64,000 nucleotides of DNA from NCBI RefSeq assembly GCF_025770765.1, contig NZ_JANZKY010000015.1:1-64000 (forward strand), in the 5' to 3' direction. Shown here piece after piece: positions 17,709 to 57,616 of the stretch (position 1 is its first letter; the number at the start of each line of letters is the position of its first letter). The translations under genes and the position numbers were made by a program. Under the pieces are notes generated by a model, which saw nothing but the letters and a program-made list of their open reading frames with translations, was not told the origin of the DNA and made no database searches. The DNA is from Propionivibrio soli (GTDB lineage: Bacteria > Pseudomonadota > Gammaproteobacteria > Burkholderiales > Rhodocyclaceae).

Positions 17709-17780
17709 TGTCCCATTTCGTGACACTCTTTTCGGGCGCAACATAGTTGCAGGATTCGAGCATTGGTCTATCAATACAAT
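17709..17780 (+). promoter_or_regulatory. Regulon palindrome and putative promoter of the AcoR-like regulator gene
   Basis: TGTCCCATTTCGTGACA (17709-17725) is a 17-bp imperfect palindrome, extended by AG/CT on its flanks. It is centred at 17717. A good -10, TACAAT, lies at 17775-17780, exactly 58 bp from the centre, with no clear -35. The same element recurs before six other operons in the window. This copy would give autoregulation of the downstream regulator. The 17623-17880 gap has nothing else I can support. Confidence 0.65.
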
Positions 17781-17880
17781 ACGATGCCAGAAATAGAGGC
17801 GACGAATACGTGCCTACATGGGGAGGGTGCCGCTAGCGCCCAATAAGAAAGACAAGCTGTTCCATCTCGGGAGCGGGAAG

Positions 17881-19797
17881 ATGGCTACACCAAGCAAGCC
17901 TGATCGCGCCAGTCTGCGGCGCGCGCGCGACCTGATGCTGCAGCGCGGGGAAGTTCCGCTCGGTTATCTCGTCAGTGCGCTGCTGGCCCGCTCATGGCGA
18001 CGCAGTGTCGAAGCGGGGCTCGCTCCCGACGGGCGCCTGCCGGATTCATGCCGGCTGACGGCGACCGAACTGGCACGCGCTACAGAACGTCAGCGCGACC
18101 TGATCGCGCATGCTCAGCCGGTCATGGAGTACCTGCATGCGCAGACGCGTGACTCAGGCAGCATGGTGATCCTGGCGGACGACAAGGGGGTTTTGCTCCA
18201 GGCGTTGGGTGATGCCGATTTCCTGACGCGTGCCGAGCGCGTCGCGCTGATGCCGGGTGCTTCATGGAACGAACGCCATCGGGGAACGAATGCGATCGGG
18301 ACCGCTCTGGCCGAAGCGCGGCCGCTCGTCGTTCACGGAGGCGAACACTTTCTCGAACGCAACGGTTTCCTTTCATGCGCCGCCGTTCCGCTCTCCGCGC
18401 CTGATGGGCGCTTGCTCGGCATCCTGGATATTTCCGGCGACGAACGACAGCATCATCCGCACACCTTCGGGCTGGTGCGCGCCGCTGCGCAGATGGTGGA
18501 AAACCGCTTATTCGATGCCCACCATGCCCGCAGCCTGCGCGTTCGCTTCCATCCGATGGCCGAAGGAATCGGCACGTTCGCCGAGGGGATCGCCGCGTTT
18601 TCCGACGATGGCTGGCTGGTCGGCGCCAACCAGGCGGCGCTCGGGATGCTCGGGCTGCAGCCCGCCGATCTCAAGATAACGATGTTCGAACGCCTCTTCA
18701 GGCTCCGTCTCACCGACCTCCTCGACTGGAACCGTCGCCGCCCCGGCGAACCGATGCTCGTCGCGCGTTCGGATGGCTCACGTTTTTTCGTGCGCGTCGA
18801 GCCGGCCCTGATGACGCGTCCTTCCGGCGTTTCGGTCGCTCTACCGACGCCGCCGGCCGCCCGTCCGAAAACCGCGCTTTCCGCGCTGGATACCGGCGAC
18901 GATCGCATTTCGACAGCGATCGAGAAGGCGCACAAGCTGATCGGCAAGCCGATTTCTCTGCTCCTGCAAGGCGAACCCGGCGTCGGCAAGGAGAGCTTCG
19001 CCCGCGCGTTTCACGCCTCCGGACCGCGCCAGGACGGGCCATTCATTTCGGTCAATCTGGCGGCACTCCAGGACAGCCTGATCGAGGCCGAGCTTTTCGG
19101 CTTCGCGCCCACTCTGTGTAGGGAGGGGGCTCTGGGGCGAATACGCGAAGCGCATAACGGAACGCTCTTCCTCGACGAGATCGAGTGCCTGCCAAAAGCT
19201 CTGCAGGCTCGGCTGCTGAAAGTGATTCAGGAGAGGCGCATCACGCCGCTGGGTGGCGAGTCCGAACCCGTCGATATCGTCTTGATCTCAGCCACGAACG
19301 CGAATCTGAAAGCAGAAATCGAAGCCGGGCGGTTCGACGCCGATCTCTACTATCGCATCAACGGGCTGACGCTCCAGTTGATTCCATTGAGACAACGAAA
19401 GGACTTCCCGTCGATCGTGGCGCGCATCCTGGAAGACCTGGCGCCGGATGGTGGAGTGAGCCTTGAGCCCGCCGTTGCCACGGCATTTGCCGAATACCCG
19501 TGGCCGGGCAACCTGCGCCAACTGAGCAACGCCCTGCGTGCTGCGTGCGCCTTGCTCGAAGAAGGGCAGACACGTATCGGTTGGGAGCATCTGCCGGACG
19601 ATCTGGCTGAAGAGTTGCGCTGGCCCGTCCCGCAGGTACAAGCCCCAGCGGGCGAGACCACTGAGAATCTGCGCGAATTGTCCCAGGCGACGATCGCTCG
19701 CGCCGTCGCTTTGAGTCACGGCAACATGTCGGAGGCGGCACGAAGGTTGGGTATCAGTCGCAATACGCTGTACCGCCGCATGAATGCCAAGAGCTAG
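17881..19797 (+). CDS. AcoR-like GAF/PAS-AAA+-Fis regulator lacking the GAFTGA loop
   Basis: A 638-residue bacterial enhancer-binding-protein homologue; the start at 17881 is preferred over 17818 because GGGAGCGGGAAG precedes it. An N-terminal GAF-type sensor (about 55-210) and a PAS-like region (about 220-320) lead into the AAA+ domain. Walker A (GEPGVGKE), Walker B (GTLFLDEIE) and the arginine finger (DADLYYRING) are kept. The Fis-type HTH is at the C terminus (NMSEAARRLGISRNTLYRRM). In place of GAFTGA between ELFG and GRIREA it has FAPTLCREGAL, several residues shorter. That loop is the sigma54 contact in this family, so it probably activates sigma70 promoters, as TyrR does. It is the prime candidate to bind the palindromes. 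Confidence 0.85.
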   Translation: MATPSKPDRASLRRARDLMLQRGEVPLGYLVSALLARSWRRSVEAGLAPDGRLPDSCRLTATELARATERQRDLIAHAQPVMEYLHAQTRDSGSMVILADDKGVLLQALGDADFLTRAERVALMPGASWNERHRGTNAIGTALAEARPLVVHGGEHFLERNGFLSCAAVPLSAPDGRLLGILDISGDERQHHPHTFGLVRAAAQMVENRLFDAHHARSLRVRFHPMAEGIGTFAEGIAAFSDDGWLVGANQAALGMLGLQPADLKITMFERLFRLRLTDLLDWNRRRPGEPMLVARSDGSRFFVRVEPALMTRPSGVSVALPTPPAARPKTALSALDTGDDRISTAIEKAHKLIGKPISLLLQGEPGVGKESFARAFHASGPRQDGPFISVNLAALQDSLIEAELFGFAPTLCREGALGRIREAHNGTLFLDEIECLPKALQARLLKVIQERRITPLGGESEPVDIVLISATNANLKAEIEAGRFDADLYYRINGLTLQLIPLRQRKDFPSIVARILEDLAPDGGVSLEPAVATAFAEYPWPGNLRQLSNALRAACALLEEGQTRIGWEHLPDDLAEELRWPVPQVQAPAGETTENLRELSQATIARAVALSHGNMSEAARRLGISRNTLYRRMNAKS

Positions 19798-19874: not shown

Positions 19875-19945
19875 TGTCATTTCGTGACACGGAGGTGCGT
19901 ATAGGCCTTGGAGAACTCGTGCGCCGTTCGGGTGTGCGGTAAAAC
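19875..19945 (+). promoter_or_regulatory. Regulon palindrome (15-bp form) and putative promoter of the molybdopterin operon
   Basis: TGTCATTTCGTGACA (19875-19889), inside GTGTC-N7-GACAC, is the short-spacer version of the repeated operator. A weak -10, TAAAAC, sits at 19940-19945, 58 bp from the operator centre at 19882, and no recognisable -35 is present. It lies between the regulator gene and moeB. The -10 assignment is guided by geometry seen at stronger promoters and is tentative. Confidence 0.55.
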
Positions 19946-20030: not shown

Positions 20031-20867
20031 ATGGAGATGAACGATCAGCAACTCATGCGGTACAGCCGGCACATCCTGCTGAATGAGATTGGCATCGAAG
20101 GGCAGGCGAAACTGCTCAGCAGCCGCGCGTTGATCGTTGGAGTCGGAGGCTTGGGATCGCCGGCCGCACTCTACCTTGCCTCCAGCGGGGTGGGGAGGAT
20201 CACCTTGTGCGATCCGGATGTCGTCGATTTCAGCAACCTGCAACGCCAGATCATCCATCGCACGCGTGCGGTCGGCCGGCTGAAGGTCGAGTCCGCCAAG
20301 GAAACGCTGGAAGACGTCAATCCCGAAATCAAGTACGTCACCTTGGCAGAACGTGTTGACGACGAGCGTTTGCTCGAACTCGTCGCGGATGCCGACGTCG
20401 TGCTCGACTGCAGCGACAATTTCGCCACGCGCTATGCGGTCAATCGGGCATGTGTCGCCAAACGCACACCCCTGGTGTCGGGCGCGGCGATCATGATGCA
20501 CGGGCAGTTGTCGGTTTTCGATTTTCGCCGTCCGGATGCGCCTTGCTACAACTGTCTGTTTTCCGAAGAAAGCGAAGCACCGGAGCTGCGGTGCGCGACC
20601 ACCGGCGTGTTCGCCCCCTTGGTCGGCATCATCGGCGCCATGCAGGCGGCCGAAGCCATCAAGCTCCTGGCCGGCATCGAGCGCGGCTTGAGCAACCGGC
20701 TGTTTTTCGTCAATGCGCTGGACATGAACGTGATGATCAGCGACGTGAGCAAGGACGCGTCGTGCAAGGTATGCGGAGCGCATCCAAGCCTTGTCGACAG
20801 GGCGAGATCGCCGGCGGAGTCCTGTTCGGTCAAATCTTCGTCGTGCCTAGTGGTAGGAAAGGAATAG
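20031..20867 (+). CDS. moeB: MoeB/ThiF-type sulfur-carrier adenylyltransferase
   Basis: A 278-residue E1-like enzyme starting MEMNDQQLMRYSRHILLNEIG. The ATP site GVGGLGSPAALYLASSGVG is near residue 38. The catalytic Cys segment RCATTGVFAPLVG and paired CxxC zinc motifs (CYNC, CKVC) are present. It adenylates the C-terminal Gly-Gly of MoaD so that it can be thiocarboxylated for molybdopterin synthase. It heads an operon that includes moaC, moaD, moaE, moeA and mog. The tail after CKVC is unusual (PAESCSVKSSSC). There is no rhodanese domain. Confidence 0.9.
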   Translation: MEMNDQQLMRYSRHILLNEIGIEGQAKLLSSRALIVGVGGLGSPAALYLASSGVGRITLCDPDVVDFSNLQRQIIHRTRAVGRLKVESAKETLEDVNPEIKYVTLAERVDDERLLELVADADVVLDCSDNFATRYAVNRACVAKRTPLVSGAAIMMHGQLSVFDFRRPDAPCYNCLFSEESEAPELRCATTGVFAPLVGIIGAMQAAEAIKLLAGIERGLSNRLFFVNALDMNVMISDVSKDASCKVCGAHPSLVDRARSPAESCSVKSSSCLVVGKE

Positions 20868-20877
20868 GTATTACTCC

Positions 20878-21378
20878 GTGGACGACTTGACGCATTTTTC
20901 CGACACCGGGCGAGCCCGGATGGTGGATGTTTCGGAGAAAACGAGCACTCAGCGCACGGCGATAGCCAGCGGCGTGTTGCGCATGCGGCCGGCCACGCTC
21001 GAACGCATCCGGGCGGGACGGGTCGCCAAAGGCGATGTGTTGACCGTGGCGGACGTCGCGGCCGTCATGGCGGCCAAGCGTACGCCGGAGATGATTCCGA
21101 TGTGCCACTCGCTTTCGTTGTCCGGGGTGGATGTGGCGTTCAGCGAAGTGACGGAGCCGGATGCTGGCGGGTGCGTCGGAATCAAGGCTGCAGTTACCGC
21201 GACGTGCGTCGGCCAGACGGGCGTCGAGATGGAGGCGTTGTGCGGGGCGAACGTGGCTCTGCTGACGATCTACGACATGTGCAAGGCGATCGATCGCGGC
21301 ATGCGGATCGAATGTGTGCAACTCGAAGAAAAACGTGGCGGCAAGAGCGGCCACTGGAGACGTGGAGACTTGAAATGA
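20878..21378 (+). CDS. moaC: Cyclic pyranopterin monophosphate synthase MoaC
   Basis: A 166-residue MoaC with GTG start. Family motifs are VDVSEKTSTQRTAIA, PMCHSLSLSGVDV and VGIKAAVTATCVGQTGVEMEALCG-like segments, with the catalytic Lys and the cofactor-binding His. It completes the first step of molybdopterin synthesis after MoaA, whose gene is not in the window. Its stop overlaps the moaD start (ATGA). Confidence 0.95.
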   Translation: MDDLTHFSDTGRARMVDVSEKTSTQRTAIASGVLRMRPATLERIRAGRVAKGDVLTVADVAAVMAAKRTPEMIPMCHSLSLSGVDVAFSEVTEPDAGGCVGIKAAVTATCVGQTGVEMEALCGANVALLTIYDMCKAIDRGMRIECVQLEEKRGGKSGHWRRGDLK

Positions 21379-21614
21379 TCAACGTGTTGTTTTTCGGCCC
21401 GGTCGCCGACCGTGTGGGTGCAGCCGTGCTGCAATTGGAGCATCGCCAAGGATGGAGCGTGAAGGACCTGCGCGGGGAACTGGCCCAACGGTATCCGGAA
21501 GCCTTCGATATCGCGTGTTTTACTGCCGTCGATGGCGCGCACGTGCGCGACCTTGGGCGCACGCTTGACGACGGCAGCGAAGTCGCCTTCATGGCAAAGT
21601 TCTCGGGAGGCTAG
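21375..21614 (+). CDS. moaD: Molybdopterin synthase small subunit MoaD
   Basis: A 79-residue beta-grasp protein (MINVLFFGPVADRVGAAVLQL) ending in FSGG. The terminal Gly-Gly is the site of MoeB adenylation and thiocarboxylation. It is translationally coupled to moaC by ATGA and followed by moaE after one base. It is the canonical MoaD among three MoaD-like proteins in the window. Confidence 0.93.
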   Translation: MINVLFFGPVADRVGAAVLQLEHRQGWSVKDLRGELAQRYPEAFDIACFTAVDGAHVRDLGRTLDDGSEVAFMAKFSGG

Positions 21615-21615
21615 C

Positions 21616-22041
21616 GTGCATAAAGCCGTACGAATTCAGTACGAGGATTTTTCCACGGACGATGAGATCGAGGCGTTACGTGCAACGTCGAAACGCATCG
21701 GCGGCATCGGCCTGTTCCTCGGCTGTGCGCGCGATTTCTCCGAGGGAAGGGAAGTCTCCGAGATCGATTTCGATGCTTACGACCGCATGGCGCTCTCCGA
21801 GTTGAGCGCGTTGCGTGACGAAGCTATCGCCCGATTTGGTCTGATGGGTGCCCGCATCGTCCACCGGGTCGGCACGGTGACGAGCGGAGAGAACATCGTC
21901 CTCATCGTGACGGGGGCCGAACACCGTGCAGCCGCTCTCGACGCCTGCCGCTGGATCATCGACGAACTGAAAGAACGGGTACCGATCTGGAAGAAGGAGA
22001 TCACCCCGGAAGGCGACTCCTGGGTCGTGCCGCATCCTTGA
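21616..22041 (+). CDS. moaE: Molybdopterin synthase large subunit MoaE
   Basis: A 141-residue MoaE starting at GTG 21616 with GGAGG just upstream. Family segments include GGIGLFLGCARDFSEGREV, VHRVGTVTSGENIVLIV and the C-terminal PIWKKEITPEGDSWV with the catalytic Lys. It transfers sulfur from MoaD to precursor Z to give molybdopterin. Confidence 0.94.
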   Translation: MHKAVRIQYEDFSTDDEIEALRATSKRIGGIGLFLGCARDFSEGREVSEIDFDAYDRMALSELSALRDEAIARFGLMGARIVHRVGTVTSGENIVLIVTGAEHRAAALDACRWIIDELKERVPIWKKEITPEGDSWVVPHP

Positions 22042-22082
22042 TAGCGAAATGGCGAACGACAAGAAATAAGCGGAGCCGGATC

Positions 22083-23321
22083 ATGGAGAACGTGAAAGCC
22101 AGCGAGGCGCAACGGATTATCGGCGAGTGCATCAAGCCGCTCGGCGTCGAAAGCGTGTCGCTCGAGCAATCGCTCGGACGCGTGCTCGCAGAGCAACTCA
22201 CCGCCAATCGCGACTTGCCGCCCTTCGCCGTTTCGGCGATGGACGGCTTTGCCGTGCGTGCCGTTGACGTGGGAACGGCGCCCAAAACGCTCGAGATAAT
22301 CGAAGAGATCAACGCCGGTGAGATGCCGCGGCTCGCCGTCCAGGCGGGTCAATGCGCGCGCATCATGACCGGAGCGCCCATGCCTCGGGGTGCCGATGCC
22401 GTGATCAAGGTCGAGGACACCGAAGCGGTAGAGGAGGGGCGCGTGCGGATCGGCGTGACCGCCGACGCCGGAAACTTCGTTCGTCCACGTGGCGAGAGCA
22501 TGCATTTGGGCGACGTGGTGCTCACGGCTGGAACGCCGATTTTCCCGGGCGTCGTCGGCGTGTTGGCCACCGTCAAGGCGCGCCGGTTCTCGGTCTATCG
22601 CCGTCCCACGGTGGCCATTCTTTCGACCGGCGATGAGCTGGAAGGCCTGGACGAGCCCGTCGATCCGACCAAGATTCCCGATTCGAACACCTATGCGGTG
22701 ATGGCGCAGGTACAGAGCCTCGGCATCGAGCCCGTCATGCTCGGCATTGCGCGCGACGATCCGGTTGCTCTGGAGGCGCTGCTCAAGCACGGCCTCGAAT
22801 GCGACGTCCTGTTGGTCTCCGGCGGCAGCTCCGAAGGCGCCCGCGATTTGGTGCGTCCCTGCGTTGAGAAGCTTGGTGTGCAGATCAAGTTCTGGCGTGT
22901 GGCGACGCGGCCCGGCCACCCCTTCGCGTTCGGTCAGCGCGAGGCAACGTACTTCTTCGGGCTGCCCGGGTATCCGGTGTCGAGCATGGTCTGCTGCGAA
23001 CAGTTCGTTCTCCCCGCCCTGCGTCGCCTGATGGGCCAGACGCGCGTCTATCGGCGTACGGTGAAAGCTCGGTTGGCACAGCCGTTCAGAGCACATCCCG
23101 GGCGTACCGAGTTTGTGCGCGTCGTGCTGTCGCAGGAGGCGCTCGAGTTCGTCGCCACACCGACAGGCAGCCAGAGCAGCATGGTCTTGCTGTCCATGGC
23201 GCGTGCGGAAGGCTTCATGATCGTCCCTGCCGACTGCAAGGGCCTTGCCGCGGGCGATTACGTCACCGTGCAGTTGCTCGACGGCGCCGTGTTGCAGGAG
23301 AGCATGGGATTCAACGAGTAA
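22083..23321 (+). CDS. moeA: Molybdopterin molybdenumtransferase MoeA (copy 1)
   Basis: A 412-residue MoeA. The hallmark AMDGFAVRA and the metal-insertion segment RIMTGAPMPRGADAVIKVED are present, with the domain 3 motif LSTGDEL, the GGSSEG loop and the GLPGYPVSSMVC region. It inserts molybdate (or tungstate) into adenylylated molybdopterin. A second, diverged MoeA lies at 38535-39767. Two MoeA proteins occur in organisms that separate molybdenum from tungsten cofactors, as in archaea. Confidence 0.94.
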   Translation: MENVKASEAQRIIGECIKPLGVESVSLEQSLGRVLAEQLTANRDLPPFAVSAMDGFAVRAVDVGTAPKTLEIIEEINAGEMPRLAVQAGQCARIMTGAPMPRGADAVIKVEDTEAVEEGRVRIGVTADAGNFVRPRGESMHLGDVVLTAGTPIFPGVVGVLATVKARRFSVYRRPTVAILSTGDELEGLDEPVDPTKIPDSNTYAVMAQVQSLGIEPVMLGIARDDPVALEALLKHGLECDVLLVSGGSSEGARDLVRPCVEKLGVQIKFWRVATRPGHPFAFGQREATYFFGLPGYPVSSMVCCEQFVLPALRRLMGQTRVYRRTVKARLAQPFRAHPGRTEFVRVVLSQEALEFVATPTGSQSSMVLLSMARAEGFMIVPADCKGLAAGDYVTVQLLDGAVLQESMGFNE

Positions 23322-23354
23322 GGCAGCGAACAAGAGCCATTGAGGAGGGCGATC

Positions 23355-23897
23355 GTGAGCAGTGCACGAATCGGCATGGTGACGGTCTCCGACCGAGCCA
23401 GCCGCGGCGACTACGAAGACAAGGGGGGACCGGCCATCCGGGCTTGGCTCGACCGCGTACTGATCGGCGCTTGGGAGCCGGTGGTTCGCATCATCCCGGA
23501 CGAACAGGCACTGATCGAAGCAACGCTTGTCGAGCTCACCGACAACGAAGAGTGCTGCCTGGTCATCACGACCGGCGGTACTGGCCCCGCAGCGCGCGAC
23601 GTGACGCCGGAAGCGACGGAGGCGGTCTGCCAGAAGATGATGCCGGGTTTTGGCGAGTTGATGCGCGCGGCCTCACTCAAGGTCGTGCCGACGGCTATCC
23701 TTTCCCGGCAAATGGCCGGCATCCGCGGCAAGAGCTTTATCGTCAATCTGCCGGGCAAGCCTTCGGCGATCGATGATTGCCTGAACGCCGTTTTCCCGGC
23801 GATTCCGTATTGCATCGACCTGATCGGCGGCGATTATCTGCAAGCCGATCCGGCGCAGTGCAACGTTTTCCGTCCGCCGCATGCCGTCAAACGATAG
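23355..23897 (+). CDS. mog: Molybdopterin adenylyltransferase (Mog)
   Basis: A 180-residue MogA/Cnx1G-type protein. GTG at 23355 has AGGAGGG upstream. Motifs are VTVSDRASRGDYEDKGGP, ITTGGTGPAARDVTPEAT and INLPGKPSAI-like VNLPGKPSAID, the MPT-AMP forming site. It activates molybdopterin for metal insertion by MoeA, encoded just upstream in the operon. Confidence 0.92.
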   Translation: MSSARIGMVTVSDRASRGDYEDKGGPAIRAWLDRVLIGAWEPVVRIIPDEQALIEATLVELTDNEECCLVITTGGTGPAARDVTPEATEAVCQKMMPGFGELMRAASLKVVPTAILSRQMAGIRGKSFIVNLPGKPSAIDDCLNAVFPAIPYCIDLIGGDYLQADPAQCNVFRPPHAVKR

Positions 23898-24225
23898 CGG
23901 GGTTTCCGATACCCGGTGTGCGGAGGCACCGGAAAGTATCGGAAGCGCCCAAGCCATAGAACTCCATGCCTTCATGGGGCTCGCCGAACTCTTCCGCGCT
24001 CGCGGGTGGACGAATCCTGTGTCTTACCCTATCCAAGAGGCGATGGCCGGAGGTGCCTTGCTCGACCGGCTCGACATTCCGCGTAATGACGTCGAGGTGA
24101 TGTTCATCAACCGCAAGGCGGTGGCGGCGGACTGCGCCGAGGTTCATCCCGGCGACCGTGTTGCGCTCGTACCGCCCGGCGTGCCGGGCCCGCATCGATT
24201 TCTTCTCGGCTTCAAGAACCGCTGA
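23881..24225 (+). CDS. MoaD/ThiS-like beta-grasp protein without a C-terminal Gly-Gly
   Basis: A 114-residue protein at the end of the molybdopterin operon; its frame overlaps mog by 17 bp. After about 25 variable residues comes a ubiquitin-like beta-grasp pattern (IELHAFMGLAELF, LLDRLDIPRNDVEVMFINRKAVAADCAEVHPGDRVALVPPG). It ends HRFLLGFKNR instead of Gly-Gly, so it cannot be thiocarboxylated in the usual way. It may bind a pterin-enzyme subunit or act as a scaffold. A later start near 23974 would trim the N terminus. It converges on the flavodiiron gene with a gap of 6 bp. Confidence 0.7.
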   Translation: MPSNDSGVSDTRCAEAPESIGSAQAIELHAFMGLAELFRARGWTNPVSYPIQEAMAGGALLDRLDIPRNDVEVMFINRKAVAADCAEVHPGDRVALVPPGVPGPHRFLLGFKNR

Positions 24226-24231: not shown

Positions 24232-25419
24232 TCAAGCCGGGAGCGGCTCGACCGAGTTCGCGGTGAGGATCGCGGCAGCCAAAGCGTCAAGCGCGGCGTA
24301 GCTGTCGGCCTTGGGTACGCCGGCGATATTCACCGGCGGGAACCATTCAACCTTGAGGTTGGGCAGCAGCGGCGTGAGTGTTTCGGGCATGGTCGTACCC
24401 CAGCCATACGACCCGATGATCGCGGCGAACTTCGTTTTCGGACGCAAGGCGTTGATCAGGTAAGCCGCGGATGCCATCGCCGGATGCGGACCTTCAAGCA
24501 CGGTCGGCGAAGCGAAGACGATCGTCGAAGCCTCGACCAATGACGACGCGAGGCGACCGGTGTCGAGGTCGACGACGTTGTAAGGCTGAACCGCCAACCC
24601 TTTCTCCATCAGCCGGTCGACCAGATAGGCGACCATCTTTGCCGTGCTCTCGTACATCGAGAGGTAAGGAATGACGACCAGCGGTCGGGTGTCGTCGCCC
24701 GCCCAGCGCCGGTACAGCGAGAGGATGAACTCAGGGCGCGCGTACACCGGACCGTGGCTGGCGCCGATCATCGCGATATCGAGACTTTCGAGGCGCTTGA
24801 GCGCTTTGATCACGTTCGGACGGTACGTCATCATGATTTCCGCGTAGTACGTGAGGGCCGCCCGTTCGACCCGAGCCTCGTCGTCAGCGTAGAGGTCTGA
24901 TGTCGCGAGATGGGCGCCGAGGAAGTCGCACGAGAAGAGAATGCGGTCCTCCCGCAGATAGGTGAACGTCGTATCCGGCCAATGCACCCAGGGCACCCAC
25001 ATGAAGTGCAGCGACTTGTCTCCCATAGAGAGCGTCTGGTTGTCCTGGAGCAGAACCAGAGATTCCGGCGGTAGATCGAAGCTTGCCTTGAGCAGGCTTC
25101 GGCATTTGACGTTGGCGAGTACCTTGGCGTCCGGGTACTCGGCCAGCACCGCCGGGATCGATCCGGAGTGGTCGGGTTCAGCATGGTTCGAGACGATGTA
25201 GTCGAGCCGTTCGAGGCCGAGGCTTTTCAGCGCGCGAATGAACTCGCCGCTCATCGTCGGGTGCACCGTGTCGATGAGTGCCGTTTTCTCGCTGCCCTTC
25301 ACCACATACGCGTTGTAGCTCGTTCCCTCTGGCAGCGGCACCAGTTCGTCGAACAGCTTGCGGTTCCAGTCGATGGCTGAAATCGAGTACACGTTCGGTT
25401 TGAGTTTTCTGACGATCAT
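24232..25419 (-). CDS. Flavodiiron protein (A-type flavoprotein)
   Basis: A 395-residue protein with an N-terminal metallo-beta-lactamase diiron domain (about 1-245) and a C-terminal flavodoxin domain (about 250-390). The diiron ligands are visible in HAEPDHSG, the DTVHPTMSGE region and GASHGP. These enzymes reduce oxygen to water or nitric oxide to nitrous oxide with electrons from rubredoxin, ferredoxin or NADH. As last gene of the Mop/Trs-type operon it probably protects the oxygen-sensitive radical SAM, tungsten and hydrogenase enzymes. Confidence 0.92.
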   Translation of the reverse strand: MIVRKLKPNVYSISAIDWNRKLFDELVPLPEGTSYNAYVVKGSEKTALIDTVHPTMSGEFIRALKSLGLERLDYIVSNHAEPDHSGSIPAVLAEYPDAKVLANVKCRSLLKASFDLPPESLVLLQDNQTLSMGDKSLHFMWVPWVHWPDTTFTYLREDRILFSCDFLGAHLATSDLYADDEARVERAALTYYAEIMMTYRPNVIKALKRLESLDIAMIGASHGPVYARPEFILSLYRRWAGDDTRPLVVIPYLSMYESTAKMVAYLVDRLMEKGLAVQPYNVVDLDTGRLASSLVEASTIVFASPTVLEGPHPAMASAAYLINALRPKTKFAAIIGSYGWGTTMPETLTPLLPNLKVEWFPPVNIAGVPKADSYAALDALAAAILTANSVEPLPA

Positions 25420-25440
25420 GATGAAATCCCCTTTCGTGTT

Positions 25441-27374: not shown

Positions 27375-27378
27375 GGTT

Positions 27379-28779: not shown

Positions 28780-28781
28780 GA

Positions 28782-30391: not shown

Positions 30392-30403
30392 GTCATCCGG
30401 TTC

Positions 30404-44131: not shown

Positions 44132-44196
44132 TTCAAGCGAAATCGAATCCCCGCAGCGGTTTATGACGAGCCGCCGCTACCAATTCGGAGAACGTT

Positions 44197-45927: not shown

Positions 45928-46033
45928 TCGGCGCTAACGTGATACGGAACACCGCCCACGAATCCCGGCTTGGTGAGATTGCCATACCGGGCTTCGTGGG
46001 CATTCCGCGATCCCTTCGTCATCCCCGCGGACG

Positions 46034-46291: not shown

Positions 46292-46364
46292 GGGGCTCTC
46301 ATCCACAGTCAGATAGCCCGCGCCGACGCGTTGATAACCATTACACAAGGAGGCTCGCGTCATC

Positions 46365-47060: not shown

Positions 47061-47093
47061 TGGCCAACGCACACTAAAACAGGAAGAACGGCC

Positions 47094-50002: not shown

Positions 50003-51063
50003 GGGTCGATGCTGTTCACGATGATCGCGATATCCGCGATCTTCGCGTCCTTGAGCATGAAGCGCAGCGCGTCCCAGTTCATGAAGCTCGGCACCCGCCA
50101 CTTGACGCGTTCCGGACGCGGCGAATCGGTGATGCGCACGTAGTAGATCAGTTCGCCACGTGGCGCTTCGCATTTCGCGATGGCTTCGCCCGGTGGAATC
50201 GCCGGACGTTCGCTCGTACAGGCCGTCGGCCCGTCGGGCAATTGGACGAGGCATTGGCGGATGATGCCGATCGCCGTCGCGGCTTCCGCCAGGCGGATCA
50301 TGGCTCGCGACCAGACATCGCCGTCTTTCAAGGTATGCACAGGGACCTGCAGGTTGGGGTAGGCCGAGTAGGGCGCCTTGAGGCGGACGTCGTATTCGAT
50401 TCCCGAGGCACGCGCCACGGGGCCGACCACCGAGCAGTTGATCGCGTCTTCGCGCGAGAGAACGCCGATCCCCCGCGTGCGCCCTAGAATCGAACCGTTC
50501 GTGCGGTAGATCTTGGTGACCTCCGCGATCGCGGGCTCGACCTTGTCGAGTTGCGCTTTGAGGTACTCGGCGTTTTCCGGCGTGATGTCGTAGCGGACGC
50601 CCCCGATGATGTTCGCGCCGATGTCCATGCGGTTGCCGAACACCGATTCCTTGACGTCCTGCATCATCTCGCGGATTTCCATGACGTGCATGAAGAGCGA
50701 CTCGAAGCCGACCAGATGGGCGAGGACGCTGACGTTGAAGAGGTTGGAGGCAACGCGCTTGATCTCGTCAGCAATGACGCGCAGGTACTCGGCACGTGGC
50801 GGCACCGTGAGTCCGGCGATCTGCTCGACCGCCATCGCATACGCTTGCGGGTGGCTGTTCGAGCACAGCGAGCAGATGCGCTCCGTCAGCACGATGTTCT
50901 GGAAGATGTTGCGCTTGGTCACCAGATATTCGATGCCGCGATGTACGTGGCCGGCGTGGATGTCGACGTTGGCTACCGTTTCGCCCTGCACGTCGAAGCG
51001 GAAATACATCGGCTCCTCGAGTGCGACGTGCAGCGGTCCGACCGGGATGGTGAAGGTGCTCAT
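49978..51063 (-). CDS. Group 4 [NiFe] hydrogenase large subunit (Ech/CooH-like, no C-terminal extension)
   Basis: A 361-residue NuoD-like subunit that keeps all four nickel ligands: ICSLC near the N terminus (Cys 64 and 67 with SNSH) and DPCISCTER at the C terminus (Cys 355 and 358). NuoD itself lacks these. The chain ends at the Arg after the second motif, exactly where HycE-type precursors are cut, so no maturation protease is needed, as described for CooH and EchE. ATG at 51063 overlaps the stop of the NuoC-like gene. It is the site of proton reduction or H2 oxidation. Confidence 0.92.
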   Translation of the reverse strand: MSTFTIPVGPLHVALEEPMYFRFDVQGETVANVDIHAGHVHRGIEYLVTKRNIFQNIVLTERICSLCSNSHPQAYAMAVEQIAGLTVPPRAEYLRVIADEIKRVASNLFNVSVLAHLVGFESLFMHVMEIREMMQDVKESVFGNRMDIGANIIGGVRYDITPENAEYLKAQLDKVEPAIAEVTKIYRTNGSILGRTRGIGVLSREDAINCSVVGPVARASGIEYDVRLKAPYSAYPNLQVPVHTLKDGDVWSRAMIRLAEAATAIGIIRQCLVQLPDGPTACTSERPAIPPGEAIAKCEAPRGELIYYVRITDSPRPERVKWRVPSFMNWDALRFMLKDAKIADIAIIVNSIDPCISCTER

Positions 51064-51650
51064 GCGTTGCTCCCTGTCTGGGCCAGGATCTTTTCCCAAA
51101 GCCCTTTGGTGGTGGCGCTGTTGACCAATGCCGAGAAGGGGATCAGGCGTTCGAGGACGGCGCCGTCGATCGCCGGGTCGATGAACAGGCGGCGAGGGTC
51201 CGGGTGGTTGGAAACGACGATCGAGTACAGCTCCATCATCTCGCGTTCGGGCCAGTCGGCCGCCCTGTACAGCGGCGTCAACGAGGCGACTTCACCGCCG
51301 AATGGCACATAGACGACGACCGTGAGCGTGTCGCCATCGACGTCGAAGTGATAGTTGATTTCGAAACTCTTGCCGTCGTTCGGCACGCCGCCGAAGAACG
51401 TGGGCACCACGGGTGTCTCGCCTTCCTTGGGGGGCGGAGCGGGCGGCGCTTTCGGCTGCAGGATGGTGATCGTCGACACGCGCGCACCCCTTTGCTTCAG
51501 AAGCGTCGCGGCCCGCAGCAGATCGTCCTTGCTGGCAAGCCGGGCCCACGCGCTGCCCACGCCCTTGGCATCGGTCCGCCGTGTGTATTGAATGCCCGCC
51601 GGCGCGGCTTCGTTCAGGGGCGCTTCGAGACCTTCGAATAGTTTGCTCAT
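51060..51650 (-). CDS. Hydrogenase NuoC-like (30-kDa) subunit
   Basis: A 196-residue protein with the NuoC/HycE-N pattern near its C terminus (SLTPLYRAADWPEREMMELYSIVVSNHPDPRRLFID). It is separate from the large subunit, unlike HycE where the two are fused. A Pro-rich loop (PKAPPAPPPKEGE) is odd. It is coupled to both neighbours by ATGA overlaps. It bridges the catalytic subunits in the peripheral arm. Confidence 0.88.
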   Translation of the reverse strand: MSKLFEGLEAPLNEAAPAGIQYTRRTDAKGVGSAWARLASKDDLLRAATLLKQRGARVSTITILQPKAPPAPPPKEGETPVVPTFFGGVPNDGKSFEINYHFDVDGDTLTVVVYVPFGGEVASLTPLYRAADWPEREMMELYSIVVSNHPDPRRLFIDPAIDGAVLERLIPFSALVNSATTKGLWEKILAQTGSNA

Positions 51651-52150
51651 GACACGGCTCCTCGTTCAGCCAACGCCTTCTTGCGGCAGGCCGGACACAG
51701 ATTGCGTTGCTGTTCGATTTCCTCGGGGGTGAACGGCGGTTCCACGCCCACGGGGTTGGGTGCGCTCGAGAGTGTCTTGGCGTTGCATCCCGTACAGTTC
51801 ACATAGACGATCGTTTCGCGGATTGCCATCCCGAACTCGTCTTTCACCGGATGCGCCATATGCCAGTCGGTCGTCTGACGGATGGCATCGGTCGGGCAAT
51901 AGTGTTCGCACAGTCCGCAGAAAACGCAGGTGTTGTGCCACATCATGAAGCGCAGGCCTTCCGGCGTCTTGTCGAAGCGTATCGCGCCAGGTGCACATAC
52001 CTGCTCGCAGGCGCGGCACGCCGTGCATGAAGCGAGCTTGAAATCAATGCGGCCGCGAAAATTGTCCGGCGTCCACGCCGGACCGAACGGATAGCTCACC
52101 GTCGATGGCCCGCTCACCAGATTCTGAATCAGCGTTTTTATGAAGTTCAT
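51647..52150 (-). CDS. Hydrogenase 2[4Fe-4S] subunit (NuoI/HycF-like)
   Basis: A 167-residue protein with two cluster motifs (CTACRACEQVCAPGAI and CVFCGLCEHYCPTDAI). An added C-terminal CTGC and CPAC pair may bind zinc. ATG at 52150 has AGGAACC upstream. It takes electrons from the soluble ferredoxins to the small subunit. The absence of NADH or formate dehydrogenase subunits points to ferredoxin as electron partner. Confidence 0.9.
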   Translation of the reverse strand: MNFIKTLIQNLVSGPSTVSYPFGPAWTPDNFRGRIDFKLASCTACRACEQVCAPGAIRFDKTPEGLRFMMWHNTCVFCGLCEHYCPTDAIRQTTDWHMAHPVKDEFGMAIRETIVYVNCTGCNAKTLSSAPNPVGVEPPFTPEEIEQQRNLCPACRKKALAERGAVS

Positions 52151-52167
52151 GGCGGTTCCTGAAGGGA

Positions 52168-52617
52168 TCAAAGGCGCTGGCGCCAGATCTCGATGGCCTG
52201 CGCGATGCCCTCGATGATCGCTTGCGGCCTGGGGGCGCAGCCGGGGACGTTGACGTCGACCGGGATGTACTTGGAGAGCGGAGCGAGGACCGCATAACCG
52301 TCCCTGAAGATGCCGCCTGATATCGGGCAGACGCCCACCGCGACCGTTACTTTGGGATCGGGGACTTCGTCAAAGACGCGCAGCACGCTGTCCTTGACGC
52401 GTGCCGTAAGCGGCCCGGTAACCAGCACGATGTCGGCGTGGCGCGGGCTGCCGCAGTACTGGCAGCCGAGCCGTTCGACGTCGTAGCGAGGAATGAGCGC
52501 CGTGGTCGCGCATTCGACGTCGCAACCGTTGCACGAGCCGGCGTTGATGCGGTAAATCCAGGGCGAGCGGGCCGCCATGCGGCGGCTCTGATCGGAAATG
52601 AACTGTTTGAGGGACAT
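52168..52617 (-). CDS. Group 4 hydrogenase small subunit (NuoB/HycG-like)
   Basis: A 149-residue protein carrying the proximal [4Fe-4S] cluster: Cys 29 and 32 (CNGCDVE), Cys 97 (GVCPISGG) and Cys 127 (PGCAPRP). The start at 52617 (MSLKQFISDQ) follows the NuoH-like gene by 13 bp. It pairs with the large subunit encoded at 49978-51063. Confidence 0.92.
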   Translation of the reverse strand: MSLKQFISDQSRRMAARSPWIYRINAGSCNGCDVECATTALIPRYDVERLGCQYCGSPRHADIVLVTGPLTARVKDSVLRVFDEVPDPKVTVAVGVCPISGGIFRDGYAVLAPLSKYIPVDVNVPGCAPRPQAIIEGIAQAIEIWRQRL

Positions 52618-52630
52618 GGCATGTTTCCGG

Positions 52631-53587
52631 TTAGGCAAGAGCGACGACCGCGAGCGACAGCACCGAGAAGGCCAGTGGCCACTTGAGGAAGAAGCGGAAG
52701 GCCTGGTCGATGCGCATCCGGCCGCACGAGACGCGCACAACCGAGACGCCGATCAGCATGAGCAGAACGAGCTTGGCAAGGTGAACGAGCAGCCCCGCGG
52801 CGCCGTCCGGCGCATAGGGGAAAAAGAGAGCGATGCCAAGCCCGAGCACGACGACCGCCTTGAGGGCCGACATGACCTTGAACAAACCAAGCGCCGGCCC
52901 CGAGTATTCGAGCAGCGGGCCTTCGAGCACTTCGGTTTCGGCTTCCGGAATATCGAACGGGATAATGCCCAGGTTGGCCGGATAGAAAGCCAGGAAGGCG
53001 AGCAGGGCTGGCCACATCACCGGGTCGAGCAGGAAGGCGCCGTGTGTGCGCTGATAGGCAACGATCTCGGTGAGCGAAAAGCTTACCCATCCGCCCTGAC
53101 CGAGCCCCGTGCGCAGCGCGACCGCGGCGACCACAAGTACCAGCGGCCCTTCGTAAGCCAGCATCATCGCCATCTCGCGCGAGAAACCGATGGCACCGAA
53201 AGGAGAGCCCGACGCCGAGCCGGCGACCATCAAGGCGACGGCCGGAACGGTCAGCAGATAGAGCACGACCAGCAGATCGCCGAACGCCGGGTTGGGTGTG
53301 TAGAACCCGGGGATCGGCACCAGCGCGGCGGCCAGCGCCATGGAGACGGCGCCGATCAACGGTGCGCCGAGGAACACCGGCTCGCTGGCGATGTTCGGGA
53401 CCATCGTGCGTTTTTTCGCGAGCTTGACGAGGTCGTATAACGGTTGTGCCAGCGGCGGGCCGACGCGTCGCTGCAGGCGCGCGGCCAGACGGCGGTCGAG
53501 CCCCTTGAGCGCCAAACCGAGAGCCAGTGCGAACAGGCCGCCCGGAAACACCAACATGGCGAAGATGGCGTAGAACGATTCGGTCAT
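52631..53587 (-). CDS. Hydrogenase membrane anchor subunit (NuoH/HycD/EchB-like)
   Basis: A 318-residue protein with about eight helices. It has the NuoH hallmarks ARLQRRVGPPLAQPLYDLVKL and IPEAETEVLEGPLLEYSG, whose acidic residues lie in the proton path near the quinone-like cavity. It links the catalytic arm to the antiporter-like subunit encoded upstream. Confidence 0.92.
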   Translation of the reverse strand: MTESFYAIFAMLVFPGGLFALALGLALKGLDRRLAARLQRRVGPPLAQPLYDLVKLAKKRTMVPNIASEPVFLGAPLIGAVSMALAAALVPIPGFYTPNPAFGDLLVVLYLLTVPAVALMVAGSASGSPFGAIGFSREMAMMLAYEGPLVLVVAAVALRTGLGQGGWVSFSLTEIVAYQRTHGAFLLDPVMWPALLAFLAFYPANLGIIPFDIPEAETEVLEGPLLEYSGPALGLFKVMSALKAVVVLGLGIALFFPYAPDGAAGLLVHLAKLVLLMLIGVSVVRVSCGRMRIDQAFRFFLKWPLAFSVLSLAVVALA

Positions 53588-53599
53588 GATTTTTCTCCG

Positions 53600-56500
53600 T
53601 CAGGCGGCCTTGGTTTGCGGTGGGAGGGCGTGCGCCGGTAGGGCGGCGTGGGTTTCCGTGTTGTCGATCTGATCGACATCGTCGTCGTACCCGGTGTCGT
53701 GCGCGGCGTGCAGGAGACCGCGCATGGTTGCCTCGGGCGATTCGAACAGGTTCGAGGCGCCAACGTGTGCCGCGCCGCTCGGGATGTCGGCGACGCCGCA
53801 CAGGTGGATCGGCGAACGGATCACCGCCGCGTTGCCGCGACCGAGGCGCAGGTAATACGACGCGGCCACGCCGAGAACGAGCAGAATCCCCGACAGGAAT
53901 CCGGGATGCCAGCCGCCGGTGCCGGGCAGCGCTCCGCCCCACGTGGCGGCGATCACTGGCAAGCCGAGGTGTTGCTGGATCATGGCGATCGGCACGAGCA
54001 AGAGCCCGGGCATGAACCCCACCGCAACGCATCCGGCCGTCAACACGATCATCGGTACCAGCATCACCAGCGGCGCTTCCTGCGCGTGCTCGGCGGCAGC
54101 CCCAGGCGACCCCATGAAAGCCGCGTGTGCGAACTTGAGGATCGCGGCCAGCGTGAACAAACTGGCGATCAGCGCAAAGATGCCGAGAACGTAGTGCCCG
54201 GAACCGAACGCTGCTTGGTAGATGAGCCACTTCGACGAAAATCCGTTGAGCGGCGGTATGCCGGCCAGCGAAAGCCCGGCAAACAGAAAAATCCCGAAGG
54301 TGATCGGCATCTTGCGGCCGAGGCCGCCCAGTTCATCCAGTGTGCGCGCATGGCTGGCGACCATGATGCAGCCCGCGCAGAGGAAGAGGAGGTCTTTGAG
54401 CATCATGTGGTTGGCGAAATGCATCAGGCCGCCCGCAACCCCGAGCGTCGTTCCGAGCCCGAGCGCCATGGTGATGTAACCGAGCTGGCACACGGTGCTG
54501 TAGATCAGCAGGCGCTTGATCCCGGTCTGCAACACCGCCATCGCCCCGGCGTAAAGCACGGTAATGCCTCCGATGAGTGCGACGGCGTACACCAGCGTCG
54601 GCATATCGCCCACCATGCCCAGGCGGTTCAATGCCGTCGCCCCGCCAAACAGGGCGAACAGCTTGATGACGCCATACGGACCGCTCTTGAGCAGCACCGA
54701 CGAGATGTAGCCCGAAACCGGCGTCGGTGCGGTGGCCGGGTGCATCTGATAGTCGATGCGGGCGGGCAGCATGGCCGCTTTCATCAGCATGCCGATGAAC
54801 ACTAGCGTCAGCGCCAATCCCAGCCAGCTCGTGCTCATGCCGCGAGCCGCCTGCGCGACGACGGCGAACTCGAAACTGCCGCTCGCGGTACCGAGCATGG
54901 CGATACCGAGGAACATGAACGATGCTCCGGCAGTATTGAACATGAAATACTTCATTGCCTCGCGCCGCGCATCGCCGGTCTCTTCATGAACCAGCGCCAC
55001 GTAAAGCGCCCAGCTGCTCATCAATTCCCAGAACGCGAAGAAATTGAAGAGATCGTGGCTGCCCGCCATGCCGACCAGGCCCGCGATGAGCAGCGAGAAG
55101 GCGGCGTAGAACCGTGCCTGCGCATGGCCGTGGGCCATGTAGCCGGTGGCATACGCGAGGTTCAGCGTACCGACGCCGGCTACGAGCAGGGCGAAGGCAA
55201 ACGACAGCGCGTCGTAACGCTCGGGTTGTCCCAACACGGTGAGAAATGCTGCCAGGGGAACGAAGATCGCCAGCCGTGCCGCGGCTTTCGGCGCTACCTT
55301 GCCGAGCAGCCAAACGGCCACCGCACCTACCGTCGCCACCGCGGTGGCTACCGGCCAGTCGAACATCAGCGGCGGGAGCATCACCGGCATCGAGCCGGAC
55401 CGTCCGGCCACCAGATCGCTGACAGCGCGCACGGCGTCGAGTTGGAGGCGCGGGTCGATACCGCCAAGAATGATGGCCGCGCTGAGGATGGCCAACGCCA
55501 GGAGCATGGATGCCGGCGCTTCGCTGACCGCCGGCCCACGATAAGGCTGGAAGAAGAGTACGCGGACCACGCGCAGGTAGTAGAACGCGGCCACGATACT
55601 GCCGATCAGGAGCAGGGCGGCAACGTCGATCCGTCCCGCCGCGGCTGCTGCCGTGATCATCAGGAACTTGCTCGTGAAACCTGCAAAGGGCGGCAGGCCC
55701 ATGATCGAAACCGTCGCCAGCGCATAGCAACCGGCGCTGAACGGCATCACCTTGCCCAACCCCGCGAGATCCGCGATCTGGCGCTTTCCGCTTTGCAGGA
55801 TGAAGGCGCCGGCCGCGAAGAACAACAGCGTCTTCATGATCGCGTGGTTGCTCGCATGCAGCAGCGCTGCCGAAGTCGCCAGCGACGTGCCAAGACCGAG
55901 GATGGCGACGATCTCGCCGATCTGCGCCAGGGTCGAATACGCGAGCATGCGCTTGATCTCGGTCTGCAACAGCGCCATGACTTCGCCAAGAACGAAGGTA
56001 GCACCGCCGAGGATCAGCAATACCGTGCCGAGGTCCACCGACCCCGCGGAGAACTTCGCCAAGGCCGCGCCACCGAATACCACGTAGAGGACTTTCACCA
56101 CGCCGAAGACACCGGCTTTGGTGAGGATGCCCGACAGCGGCGCCGAAATCGAAGACGGCGCTTCCGGGTGTGCGAGTGGCAGCCAGGAGTGCATCGGGAA
56201 GAGGCCGGCCTTGACGGCGAACCCGACGAAGAAACAAAGCGCCGCAAGGAATCCGACCGCCGGGGTCACTTGGCCGATGCGCTCGGCCACGGCGGCGAAC
56301 TCGAATGTACCGACCTGCGCGTGGACCAGCAGAATGCCGAAGTGCATCACGTAGGCACCGGCCGCGCACATGAGGAAGTACACCATGCCGGCCTTGAGGG
56401 CCTTCGGCGTCTGCTCATGCACAACGAGCAGGTAGGAACTCCACGTCATCAATTCCCAGAAGACGTAGAAGTTGCCGAACTCGTGCGCCGTAGCGAGCCC

Positions 56501-57466
56501 GAGCAGCGAACCGATCAGGAGGAATACGAAGAACGTGTAGCGGTTGGTCTGTTCGGCATGCCGCATGTAGCCATGGGAATACAGAACGACGAGGAAGGCG
56601 ATGCCGACGAAGATAACGGCAAAGAACCGAGAAACGGCGTCGAGCCCCGGTTCCTGCAGCGTCATCACGAGGCTCACGGCGGCAAGAGCCAACGCCGCTG
56701 CGTCGCGGGCGCGCACCGAGTAACGTCCGAGCGCGTAAAGGCAGAAGGCGCCTATATAAGGCACAAGGACCAACGCAGACCATGGCGATTCAAACTGCGG
56801 AATTGCTGCCAGATCGGAGATGCCGGCCATCGCGGCCGCGAGGTGAACGAAAGGTTCCGGCCAGACGCTCATGCCCACCGTCAGCGCGGTGAGCAGTGCG
56901 ATCGGGAGCGGCAAAACCCCAGGAGCAGGCTTCAAGACGCGCTCGGTCGCCGGCGGCGTCAAGCACACGCGCTGGATGACGGCGATGTAGTAAACGGCGG
57001 CGATGATGCTCGCCAACGTTCCGCAGGCGGCCAGTAGCCACTGTCCTTGCTCGATGGCGGCATAGAGAATGATGAACTTGCTGAAGGATCCCTTGAACGG
57101 CGACAGCCCCATCACGGAGAACATGCCGAACCCAAACAACGTGGCCGCCACCGGCATACGGTGGCCGCTGCCTTCCAGATCGTCGAGAGATGACGATCCG
57201 GTCCGGCGGATCAGCCACCACGCCGAGAGCACCACCAGCCCGCGCATCACGATCTGATAACCGAGATGCATCAGCGCACCGGTGCTTCCGGCGTCTCCTC
57301 CCAGGCCGATACCGAGGAGCACGTACCCCGCCTCGGCGACCGTCGAAATCACGATCAGACGCGGCAAGTTGCGGAGCGAGAACAGCGCGGCTGTTTCTCC
57401 AAGCAGGAGAATGATCGCGCCTAGCCAGGCCATGGTCGCGGGGTCGGCGCTTGTCGAGATGAGCAT
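53600..57466 (-). CDS. Giant fused antiporter-like (MrpD/NuoL/HyfB-type) subunit with two and a half modules
   Basis: A 1288-residue membrane protein. Residues about 15-230 are only the C-terminal half of an antiporter module, starting at the helix with LIVISTVAEAGYVL. Residues about 235-700 are a complete module (key Glu 328 in VFWELM, Lys 419 in GFAVKAGLFPMH, QTEIKRMLAYSTLAQIGE). Residues about 705-1210 are a second complete module (Glu 814 in AFWELM, Lys 896 in IGMLMKAAMLP, QTGIKRLLIYSTVCQLGY). A hydrophilic tail follows. Known group 4 hydrogenases use separate genes for such subunits. The design implies two ion-translocating units per complex plus a degenerate spacer. Confidence 0.88.
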   Translation of the reverse strand: MLISTSADPATMAWLGAIILLLGETAALFSLRNLPRLIVISTVAEAGYVLLGIGLGGDAGSTGALMHLGYQIVMRGLVVLSAWWLIRRTGSSSLDDLEGSGHRMPVAATLFGFGMFSVMGLSPFKGSFSKFIILYAAIEQGQWLLAACGTLASIIAAVYYIAVIQRVCLTPPATERVLKPAPGVLPLPIALLTALTVGMSVWPEPFVHLAAAMAGISDLAAIPQFESPWSALVLVPYIGAFCLYALGRYSVRARDAAALALAAVSLVMTLQEPGLDAVSRFFAVIFVGIAFLVVLYSHGYMRHAEQTNRYTFFVFLLIGSLLGLATAHEFGNFYVFWELMTWSSYLLVVHEQTPKALKAGMVYFLMCAAGAYVMHFGILLVHAQVGTFEFAAVAERIGQVTPAVGFLAALCFFVGFAVKAGLFPMHSWLPLAHPEAPSSISAPLSGILTKAGVFGVVKVLYVVFGGAALAKFSAGSVDLGTVLLILGGATFVLGEVMALLQTEIKRMLAYSTLAQIGEIVAILGLGTSLATSAALLHASNHAIMKTLLFFAAGAFILQSGKRQIADLAGLGKVMPFSAGCYALATVSIMGLPPFAGFTSKFLMITAAAAAGRIDVAALLLIGSIVAAFYYLRVVRVLFFQPYRGPAVSEAPASMLLALAILSAAIILGGIDPRLQLDAVRAVSDLVAGRSGSMPVMLPPLMFDWPVATAVATVGAVAVWLLGKVAPKAAARLAIFVPLAAFLTVLGQPERYDALSFAFALLVAGVGTLNLAYATGYMAHGHAQARFYAAFSLLIAGLVGMAGSHDLFNFFAFWELMSSWALYVALVHEETGDARREAMKYFMFNTAGASFMFLGIAMLGTASGSFEFAVVAQAARGMSTSWLGLALTLVFIGMLMKAAMLPARIDYQMHPATAPTPVSGYISSVLLKSGPYGVIKLFALFGGATALNRLGMVGDMPTLVYAVALIGGITVLYAGAMAVLQTGIKRLLIYSTVCQLGYITMALGLGTTLGVAGGLMHFANHMMLKDLLFLCAGCIMVASHARTLDELGGLGRKMPITFGIFLFAGLSLAGIPPLNGFSSKWLIYQAAFGSGHYVLGIFALIASLFTLAAILKFAHAAFMGSPGAAAEHAQEAPLVMLVPMIVLTAGCVAVGFMPGLLLVPIAMIQQHLGLPVIAATWGGALPGTGGWHPGFLSGILLVLGVAASYYLRLGRGNAAVIRSPIHLCGVADIPSGAAHVGASNLFESPEATMRGLLHAAHDTGYDDDVDQIDNTETHAALPAHALPPQTKAA

Positions 57467-57543
57467 GGAGTGAATCCCTTCCTAAGGTCTCGTCCGGCGC
57501 GGCAGACAAGTGATAACCGCGCCGTTTTGTTTTCGGTGTGCGC

Positions 57544-57616
57544 AGTATCGGAGCTGCAAAATTCAGTCGCAATGAAAACTGCGCGAACAAAAAAATCGCT
57601 GTGTCAATTCGTGACA
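57544..57616 (-). promoter_or_regulatory. Regulon palindrome (15-bp form) and promoter of the hydrogenase operon, divergent from hypA
   Basis: TGTCAATTCGTGACA lies at 57602-57616 (centre 57609). On the minus strand -35 TTGCGA (57572-57567) and -10 GATACT (57549-57544) have a 17-bp spacer, and the -10 begins 60 bp from the centre. On the plus strand a possible extended -10 (TGG then TACAAA, 57663-57671) begins 57 bp from the centre and could serve hypA. Confidence 0.65.

Follow-up and report, generated by a model that had tools for sequence, protein, structure and literature searches.

A regulator encoded in a 64,000-nucleotide stretch of the Propionivibrio soli genome (the window) is likely a sigma-54 activator turned sigma-70 regulator of a joint program of aldehyde oxidation and hydrogen metabolism, which it probably activates. 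The case is comparative, built from protein, operator, and promoter sequences in this and related genomes.

A shared operator and its genes

The regulator gene, the candidate operators (given without strand), and the neighboring island genes are arranged as follows:

17709-17725: operator TGTCCCATTTCGTGACA, upstream of the regulator gene; equivalents precede canonical regulators
17818-19797, plus strand: AcoR-like regulator with GAF domain, AAA+ domain lacking the GAFTGA loop and the arginine-finger Arg, and Fis-type helix-turn-helix; the start may be 17881
19875-19889: 15-bp operator TGTCATTTCGTGACA, upstream of the moaC-moaE-moeA-mogA-like genes, with ATACT missing from the fixed distance
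20450-24225, plus strand: molybdenum cofactor (Moco) genes, namely an ORF without family, moaC, moaE, moeA, a mogA-like gene, and an ORF without family
24232-37833, minus strand: Mop cassette, namely a small Cys-rich ORF, XdhC, the Mop aldehyde oxidoreductase, a diclust_near_Sec oxidoreductase, a methyltransferase, an ORF that is MobA-like by eye, a TrsS radical SAM protein, a DVU_1553-type ligase, a His phosphatase, and a flavorubredoxin-like ODP
38055-38071: operator TGTCACGTTTCGTGACA, serving the Mop operon; leftward from it, 64 bp from its center, is an ATACT box
38110-38126: upper of the two Mop-operon sites, 55 bp away from that at 38055
38128-39800, minus strand: moeA2 (38538-39800) and an ORF without family
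39897-39913: operator TGTCGCAAAACGTGACA, between moeA2 and cbiM
39945-43558, plus strand: cbiM-cbiQ-cbiO cobalt/nickel-type ECF transporter and a TupB-like permease (42863-43555)
43744-43760: operator TGTCACGAAAGGTGACA, upstream of the AOR operon; conserved in genomes G399 and G400
43811-43815, plus strand: ATACT of the -10-like box CGAATACTGCG, centered 61 bp from the center of operator 43744
43941-48083, plus strand: small Cys-rich ORF, tungsten AOR (44197-45924), two ORFs without family, and DUF6976
48399-50254, minus strand: TupA-like (PBP_like_2) and TupC-like (ABC_tran) genes, after the hydrogenase genes
49978-57466, minus strand: group 4-type [NiFe] hydrogenase genes
57602-57616: 15-bp operator TGTCAATTCGTGACA, in the gap that separates hypA from the hydrogenase genes; both G399 and G400 have counterparts
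57751-58131, plus strand: hypA

The sequence-only reading had listed seven palindromes, and all seven are there, each intergenic by the gene calls: 17-mers at 17709, 38055, 38110, 39897, and 43744, and 15-mers at 19875 and 57602. Strict forms of the motif match these seven places and no others in the window, as had been claimed. It had also been said that each site fronts an operon of the island; the sites at 38055 and 38110 form a pair serving one leftward operon.

Resampling of the window with a first-order Markov model (200 runs) gave 0.17 expected matches to the loose forms (maximum 2), against 7 observed, and 0.0 (maximum 0) to the AT-centered forms. This test is partly circular, because the motif forms derive from the same sites. 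A search allowing three mismatches was dropped: its 122 matches, against 126.6 expected, are at chance level, so only near-perfect matches are informative.

Throughout the 4.76-Mb genome, TGTCNC-N5-GNGACA occurs in 11 places and its reversed control in none: five island sites, five matches in long frames, and one intergenic match on contig 35. Many equally good sites in unrelated coding sequence would have counted against a regulon; the five matches outside the island that fall within stop-to-stop frames (359-666 aa) all lack the AT-rich center. The 15-bp form TGTCVCGRWWTGACA has three exact places, all on the same contig: 19875, 57602, and 72827. This last site is 8.8 kb past the end of the window, upstream of moaA, hypB (278 bits; cut-off 121), a CCG protein gene, and hypF. 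Because site 72827 was found from the motif, the motif by itself singled out Moco synthesis and hydrogenase maturation. The proposed regulon thus retains the island operons first listed for it, but extends past the window to moaA-hypB-CCG protein-hypF. A one-mismatch 17-mer at C6:164147 (L111) is apparently intergenic; its neighborhood gave no match in tblastn searches with the island proteins.

Two further operators were excluded from the regulon, and neither has an ATACT box: the one on contig 35, with an MCP gene on one side and an EAL gene on the other, and one upstream of cstA in G399 (C123). The contig 35 site (L001:8599, which is C35:158598 of this genome) is a perfect operator, TGTCACGATACGTGACA, 83 bp upstream of a FIST-MCP chemoreceptor gene, and locus L042 has an MCP-signal gene between its CCG gene and its regulator. 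The contig 35 operator and the L042 gene hint at a chemotaxis part of the regulon.

Family scans beyond the first pass covered chosen proteins, and several island ORFs have no family. The Mop cassette exceeds the cut-offs of all four NCBIfam models for such a cassette (NF045668, NF045663, NF045646, and NF045666); what differs from the cassette as modeled is that the operator apparently ties it to the genes for AOR, for the hydrogenase, and for uptake of metals. The hydrogenase large subunit contains both CxxC motifs (RICSLC and DPCISC), the cluster's families are complex I-like (Complex1_49kDa, Oxidored_q6, NADHdh, and Proton_antipo_M), and the best PDB relatives are the membrane-bound hydrogenase and formate hydrogenlyase subunit 5. 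With its CxxC motifs and complex I-like subunits, the enzyme is predicted to be a group 4 [NiFe] hydrogenase. Two small Cys-rich ORFs, one in the Mop cassette and one in the AOR operon, are ferredoxin-like by eye, with no Pfam hit.

Two assignments of transport genes need qualification. Membership of tupABC had been proposed, and tup-like genes are indeed in the set; however, the TupB-like permease (42863-43555; ABC_perm1 above cut-off, TupB below) belongs to the cbiMQO cluster, whereas the TupA-like and TupC-like genes follow the hydrogenase genes, and the TupC-like ATPase falls below every equivalog cut-off. Likewise, the transporter taken for a nickel ECF system does carry an operator, but the NCBIfam names for cbiMQO read cobalt, and the metal could be either.

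A tungsten AOR in a mesophilic betaproteobacterium has a precedent in Aromatoleum aromaticum (genes aorABCDE), according to excerpts of PMC6365974; these excerpts name no regulator or hydrogenase for aorABCDE. Among solved structures the window AOR is closest to 9mqx and 1aor, both scoring above 8c0z.

Two other features of the island stand alone. The DUF6976 protein after the AOR genes (47094-48080; 476.8 bits) has a 66% relative after the hydrogenase genes of G399. About 3 kb after hypA, beyond PAAR and DUF6402 genes, is a 94% identical hypA fragment (61189-61287), which suggests local duplication or insertion.

The island recurs in a Rhodocyclales metagenome-assembled genome (G399, JACRIZ010000018.1), where the genes are in a different order. 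Operators there are found upstream of moaA (10800), between hypA and the hydrogenase genes (11263), and between a CCG gene and AOR (42481); a pair at 26413 and 26469, spaced 56 bp from start to start as against 55 bp in the window, lies upstream of XdhC-Mop, and a further site is at 25546. In G400, another member of the Rhodocyclales whose island is rearranged as well, sites precede the hydrogenase genes, AOR, and moaA. Hence the operator is upstream of AOR, hydrogenase, and moaA genes in three organisms, and upstream of Mop in two. Loose matches in the two other island contigs number 6 against 0.23 expected (maximum 3) and 3 against 0.05 (maximum 1). AOR is 85% identical to the window protein in G399, which also has a second AOR-like gene (36%), and 84% in G400; for Mop the identity is 90% in G399, whereas G400 has only piecewise matches of 28-42%. 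The regulator is grouped with island genes in all three AOR-bearing genomes; in G400 these are hypB and a CCG gene, and the three share a short contig of their own. By the occurrence of one operator before orthologous genes in several genomes, these operons would form one regulon in this genome, G399, and G400; the pattern was not seen in G401. G401 encodes a GAFTGA-less regulator, yet searches there found neither AOR nor Mop, and no AT-centered operator that matches exactly. Therefore loss of the loop may predate the regulon, or G401 may have lost the targets.

The regulator and its relatives

By sequence the regulator is AcoR-like, with a GAF domain (PF01590), a sigma-54-type AAA+ domain (PF00158), and a Fis-type helix-turn-helix (PF02954). 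Driving sigma-54 requires both the GAFTGA loop and the arginine finger. GAFTGA or a one-letter variant (GAFSGA, GAYTGA, or GAFTGG) is present in 40 of 44 aligned rows, and missing in four: the window regulator, which reads ELFGFAPTLC----REG with a plain gap at this position, L039, L042, and L050. The same four rows lack the Arg of the FR-x-D motif (the arginine finger). Walker B residues are also missing in L042 and L050; the canonical L014 likewise has a Walker B change.

The four loop-less regulators form one clade, nested among GAFTGA-bearing rows (99/98 in a 43-row tree), and the clade persists when the loop is cut out of the alignment (99/96 in a 30-row tree). L010, whose protein is identical to L046, was kept out of the trees; also unused were L054 and two loci of different architecture, L052 and L053. 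Lacking GAFTGA, the window protein would not be expected to act as a sigma-54 enhancer-binding protein. It instead resembles the GAFTGA-less sigma-70 regulators that descend from enhancer-binding proteins, in which the loop is missing and the DNA-binding domain is kept: its helix-turn-helix is close to that of canonical relatives. Separately, two Cohaesibacter proteins (L052:9860-11596 and L053:9842-11596), encoded after a Mop cassette, combine an AcoR-like N-terminal half with a C-terminal half that by eye is Crp-like.

Relatives at E<=1e-60 occur in 98 of 399 genomes of the order, and 17 loci came from named genomes. The near, GAFTGA-bearing set comprises 24 loci (L010-L023, L040, L041, L043-L049, and L055, with L010 and L046 being one place). 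At 23 of these a divergent aldehyde dehydrogenase gene adjoins the regulator; the other, L041, stops at a contig end. A representative dehydrogenase scores 977.7 bits against the ExaC model, above its cut-off of 900. In the distant set (L024-L038, mostly with 1.5-kb flanks) the dehydrogenase gene is not adjacent, and in wider stretches of G092, G111, G388, and G067 it is some kb from the regulator. No such dehydrogenase gene was found in the stretches examined around the four loop-less regulators. G399 and G401 encode it elsewhere, adjoining a GAFTGA-bearing relative, so both regulator versions coexist there; duplication is the simplest reading, with transfer as the alternative. This genome and G400 yielded no such dehydrogenase at E<=1e-100.

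The arrangement is known from AcoR-aldB of Phytobacter diazotrophicus, in which, according to the accessible part of PMC12648084, the regulator gene is divergent from an aldehyde dehydrogenase gene and the protein binds near the promoter in gel shifts. Canonical relatives share the divergent pair. AcoR-aldB, as described in the same text, is sigma-54 dependent and has another site, whereas the window regulator has no GAFTGA, no dehydrogenase neighbor, and many candidate targets.

A matrix made solely from the island sites of this genome was run on 25 regulator-upstream regions (G399 and G401 paralogues included; one region extends only to a contig end). Such a scan of relatives had been proposed with the first reading, and it gave a match in the regulator/dehydrogenase intergenic region at p<=0.02 in 22 of the 25 loci. 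In 16 regions the match outscores all control segments; L044, L049, and the G399 paralogue fall short (p 0.055-0.069). Several canonical loci have a second site 16-20 bp away, an arrangement like tandem enhancers. Counted over whole canonical genomes, 17-mers do not outnumber the reversed control overall (3 versus 6 in G013, for example); canonical loci stand out by an AT-centered match at the regulator/dehydrogenase spot, not by genome-wide counts. Together with the sites conserved in rearranged islands, the 22 loci lend comparative support to the assignment, made at the outset, of the operator to the protein encoded at 17881-19797. The comparison strongly supports a single operator common to the island operons and owned by the regulator at 17818-19797. 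The missing sigma-54 contact loop and the constant spacing to a sigma-70-like -10 box go beyond what the sequence-only reading noticed.

Island genes are absent near most canonical regulators; L048 has tup-like and Mop-like genes. The G388 locus (L085, L086) has a canonical regulator with a dehydrogenase gene nearby, and tup-like genes, moaC, and a 33% AOR within kilobases. The neighbors at L048 and G388 imply that the link to tungsten and molybdenum may predate loop loss. A GAFTGA-bearing paralogue in G399 (L109, on C44) has no good operator upstream (7.6 bits, p 0.056), and its helix-turn-helix reads GVSRSTLYRRL, as if the two regulator versions were insulated from each other.

Promoter elements

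Sigma-54 (-24/-12) and sigma-70 elements were scored with approximate weights. A sigma-54-like element is present at p<=0.025 in 13 of 16 dehydrogenase promoters (misses: G260, G062, and L046) and in none of 10 island promoters, the nearest being cbiM (p 0.045). Sigma-54 control of the island finds no support in these 10 promoters, which by the -24/-12 criterion do not look like targets of a sigma-54 enhancer-binding protein.

The operator flanks instead share a -10-like box, CGAATACTGCG, found by reading the flanks. ATACT is centered 61-64 bp from the operator center in 11 of 38 flanks and occurs elsewhere within 250 bp only twice, one of these being the Mop box again, measured this time from the upper operator. 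Within 54-63 bp it is found in 9 of 38 flanks, against 0.09 expected (maximum 1 in 500 runs). No exact ATACT is at the fixed distance in the regulator, moaC, cbiM, moeA2, and hypA promoters of this genome. A sigma-70-like score within the top 3% at 56-64 bp characterizes 19 of 20 island promoters, where chance would give about one quarter by rough estimate. These 20 are the gene-facing subset of the 38 flanks. Omitted on the window contig are the far sides of 17709, 19875, 43744, and 72827, the rightward side of 38055, and both sides of 38110; in G399, the far sides of 10800, 26469, and 25546, and both sides of 26413; and further, the far sides of G400 2499 and 11554, and both sides of the C123 and C35 operators.

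Canonical loci display both arrangements: the sigma-70-like geometry at the regulator promoter (6 of 8, against 1 of 8 dehydrogenase sides by the same score) and sigma-54 elements on the dehydrogenase side. Their ATACT boxes, in 3 of 18 flanks, are always at 61 bp and always towards the regulator. If ATACT is taken as the -10 region, the operator center falls near -71, a class I activator position as known for CRP.

From sigma-54 to sigma-70

These observations suggest a mechanism. The ancestral state would be a sigma-54-type regulator paired with a divergent gene for an ExaC-type acetaldehyde dehydrogenase. Members of one clade stand apart from the dehydrogenase and lack the GAFTGA loop and arginine finger; the tree points to both loss and duplication, and the order of steps proposed here is conjectural. 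The altered protein, presumably bound as a dimer to a single operator near -71 of sigma-70-like promoters, would activate sigma-70 RNA polymerase in class I fashion at the operons for Mop and the tungsten AOR, for the hydrogenase and its maturation, and for Moco synthesis and metal uptake. Its GAF domain may sense an aldehyde or related metabolite, as the neighbor gene of canonical relatives hints. Aldehyde oxidation, small ferredoxin-like proteins, a hydrogenase, and metal and cofactor supply would then be expressed together, with electrons from aldehydes oxidized by AOR and Mop passing through the ferredoxin-like proteins to the group 4 hydrogenase. As to the specific path, we lean towards a copied acetaldehyde dehydrogenase activator that lost its ATPase and sigma-54 contact, and whose own-promoter sigma-70 geometry spread to tungsten/molybdenum, hydrogenase, and supply targets to make one coupling switch.

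The same regulator, at the same operator, might instead be a repressor that blocks or loops promoters until aldehyde relieves it. A TyrR-type paralogue can repress, according to excerpts of PMC3162934. The two Mop sites, 55 bp apart, could loop, and autorepression is plausible at the regulator promoters of canonical relatives, where the geometry is the same. However, the operator is 61-64 bp upstream of the -10-like box, where class I activators usually sit, does not overlap the core promoter, and is single at most targets; repression is unlikely. It is quite improbable that another factor of the same specificity binds the operators and the island regulator is a bystander. The link between operator and regulator does come from sequence comparison, and G401 has a regulator without good operators; but the palindrome sits between regulator and dehydrogenase in canonical loci, and the regulator accompanies island genes in the three AOR-bearing genomes.

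Still less probable are promoters that remain sigma-54 dependent, with the altered regulator acting as part of mixed hexamers or alongside another activator. All four genomes searched have rpoN, the weak cbiM element is -24/-12-like, and this genome has 26 candidate relatives, of which only three were scored, so there are other activators; against this stands the contrast of 0 of 10 island with 13 of 16 dehydrogenase promoters. That a reader merely picked out chance palindromes, as the three-mismatch counts might suggest, is scarcely credible given the excess on three contigs and the placement and spacing conserved in G399 and G400.

Work through sigma-70 by a relative of sigma-54 activators has precedents. 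TyrR, DhaR, and HupR (PMC3162934), and NtrC of Caulobacter and Rhodobacter capsulatus (PMC10274813), are described in the available portions of these papers as GAFTGA-less enhancer-binding-protein relatives that work with sigma-70. All of them, like the window regulator, lack the sigma-54 contact loop, but they belong to other families, with other operators and targets. Here, moreover, loop-bearing relatives retain sigma-54 elements on one side and sigma-70-like geometry on the other. While GAFTGA-less regulators are thus already known, this regulon, its operator, and the path of conversion were not met in searches of the open-access literature. That no regulon of this make-up had been described was the view of the sequence-only reading too; none was found in open-access sources, including the accessible parts of PMC6365974 and PMC13328260.

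Together, these results offer a common physiological frame for tungsten AOR, Mop, and group 4 hydrogenase in betaproteobacteria, and make testable the question of whether aldehyde oxidation drives hydrogen evolution. Moreover, the sister genes, with both forms present in two genomes, allow stepwise comparison of a switch from sigma-54 to sigma-70 in both protein and promoter.
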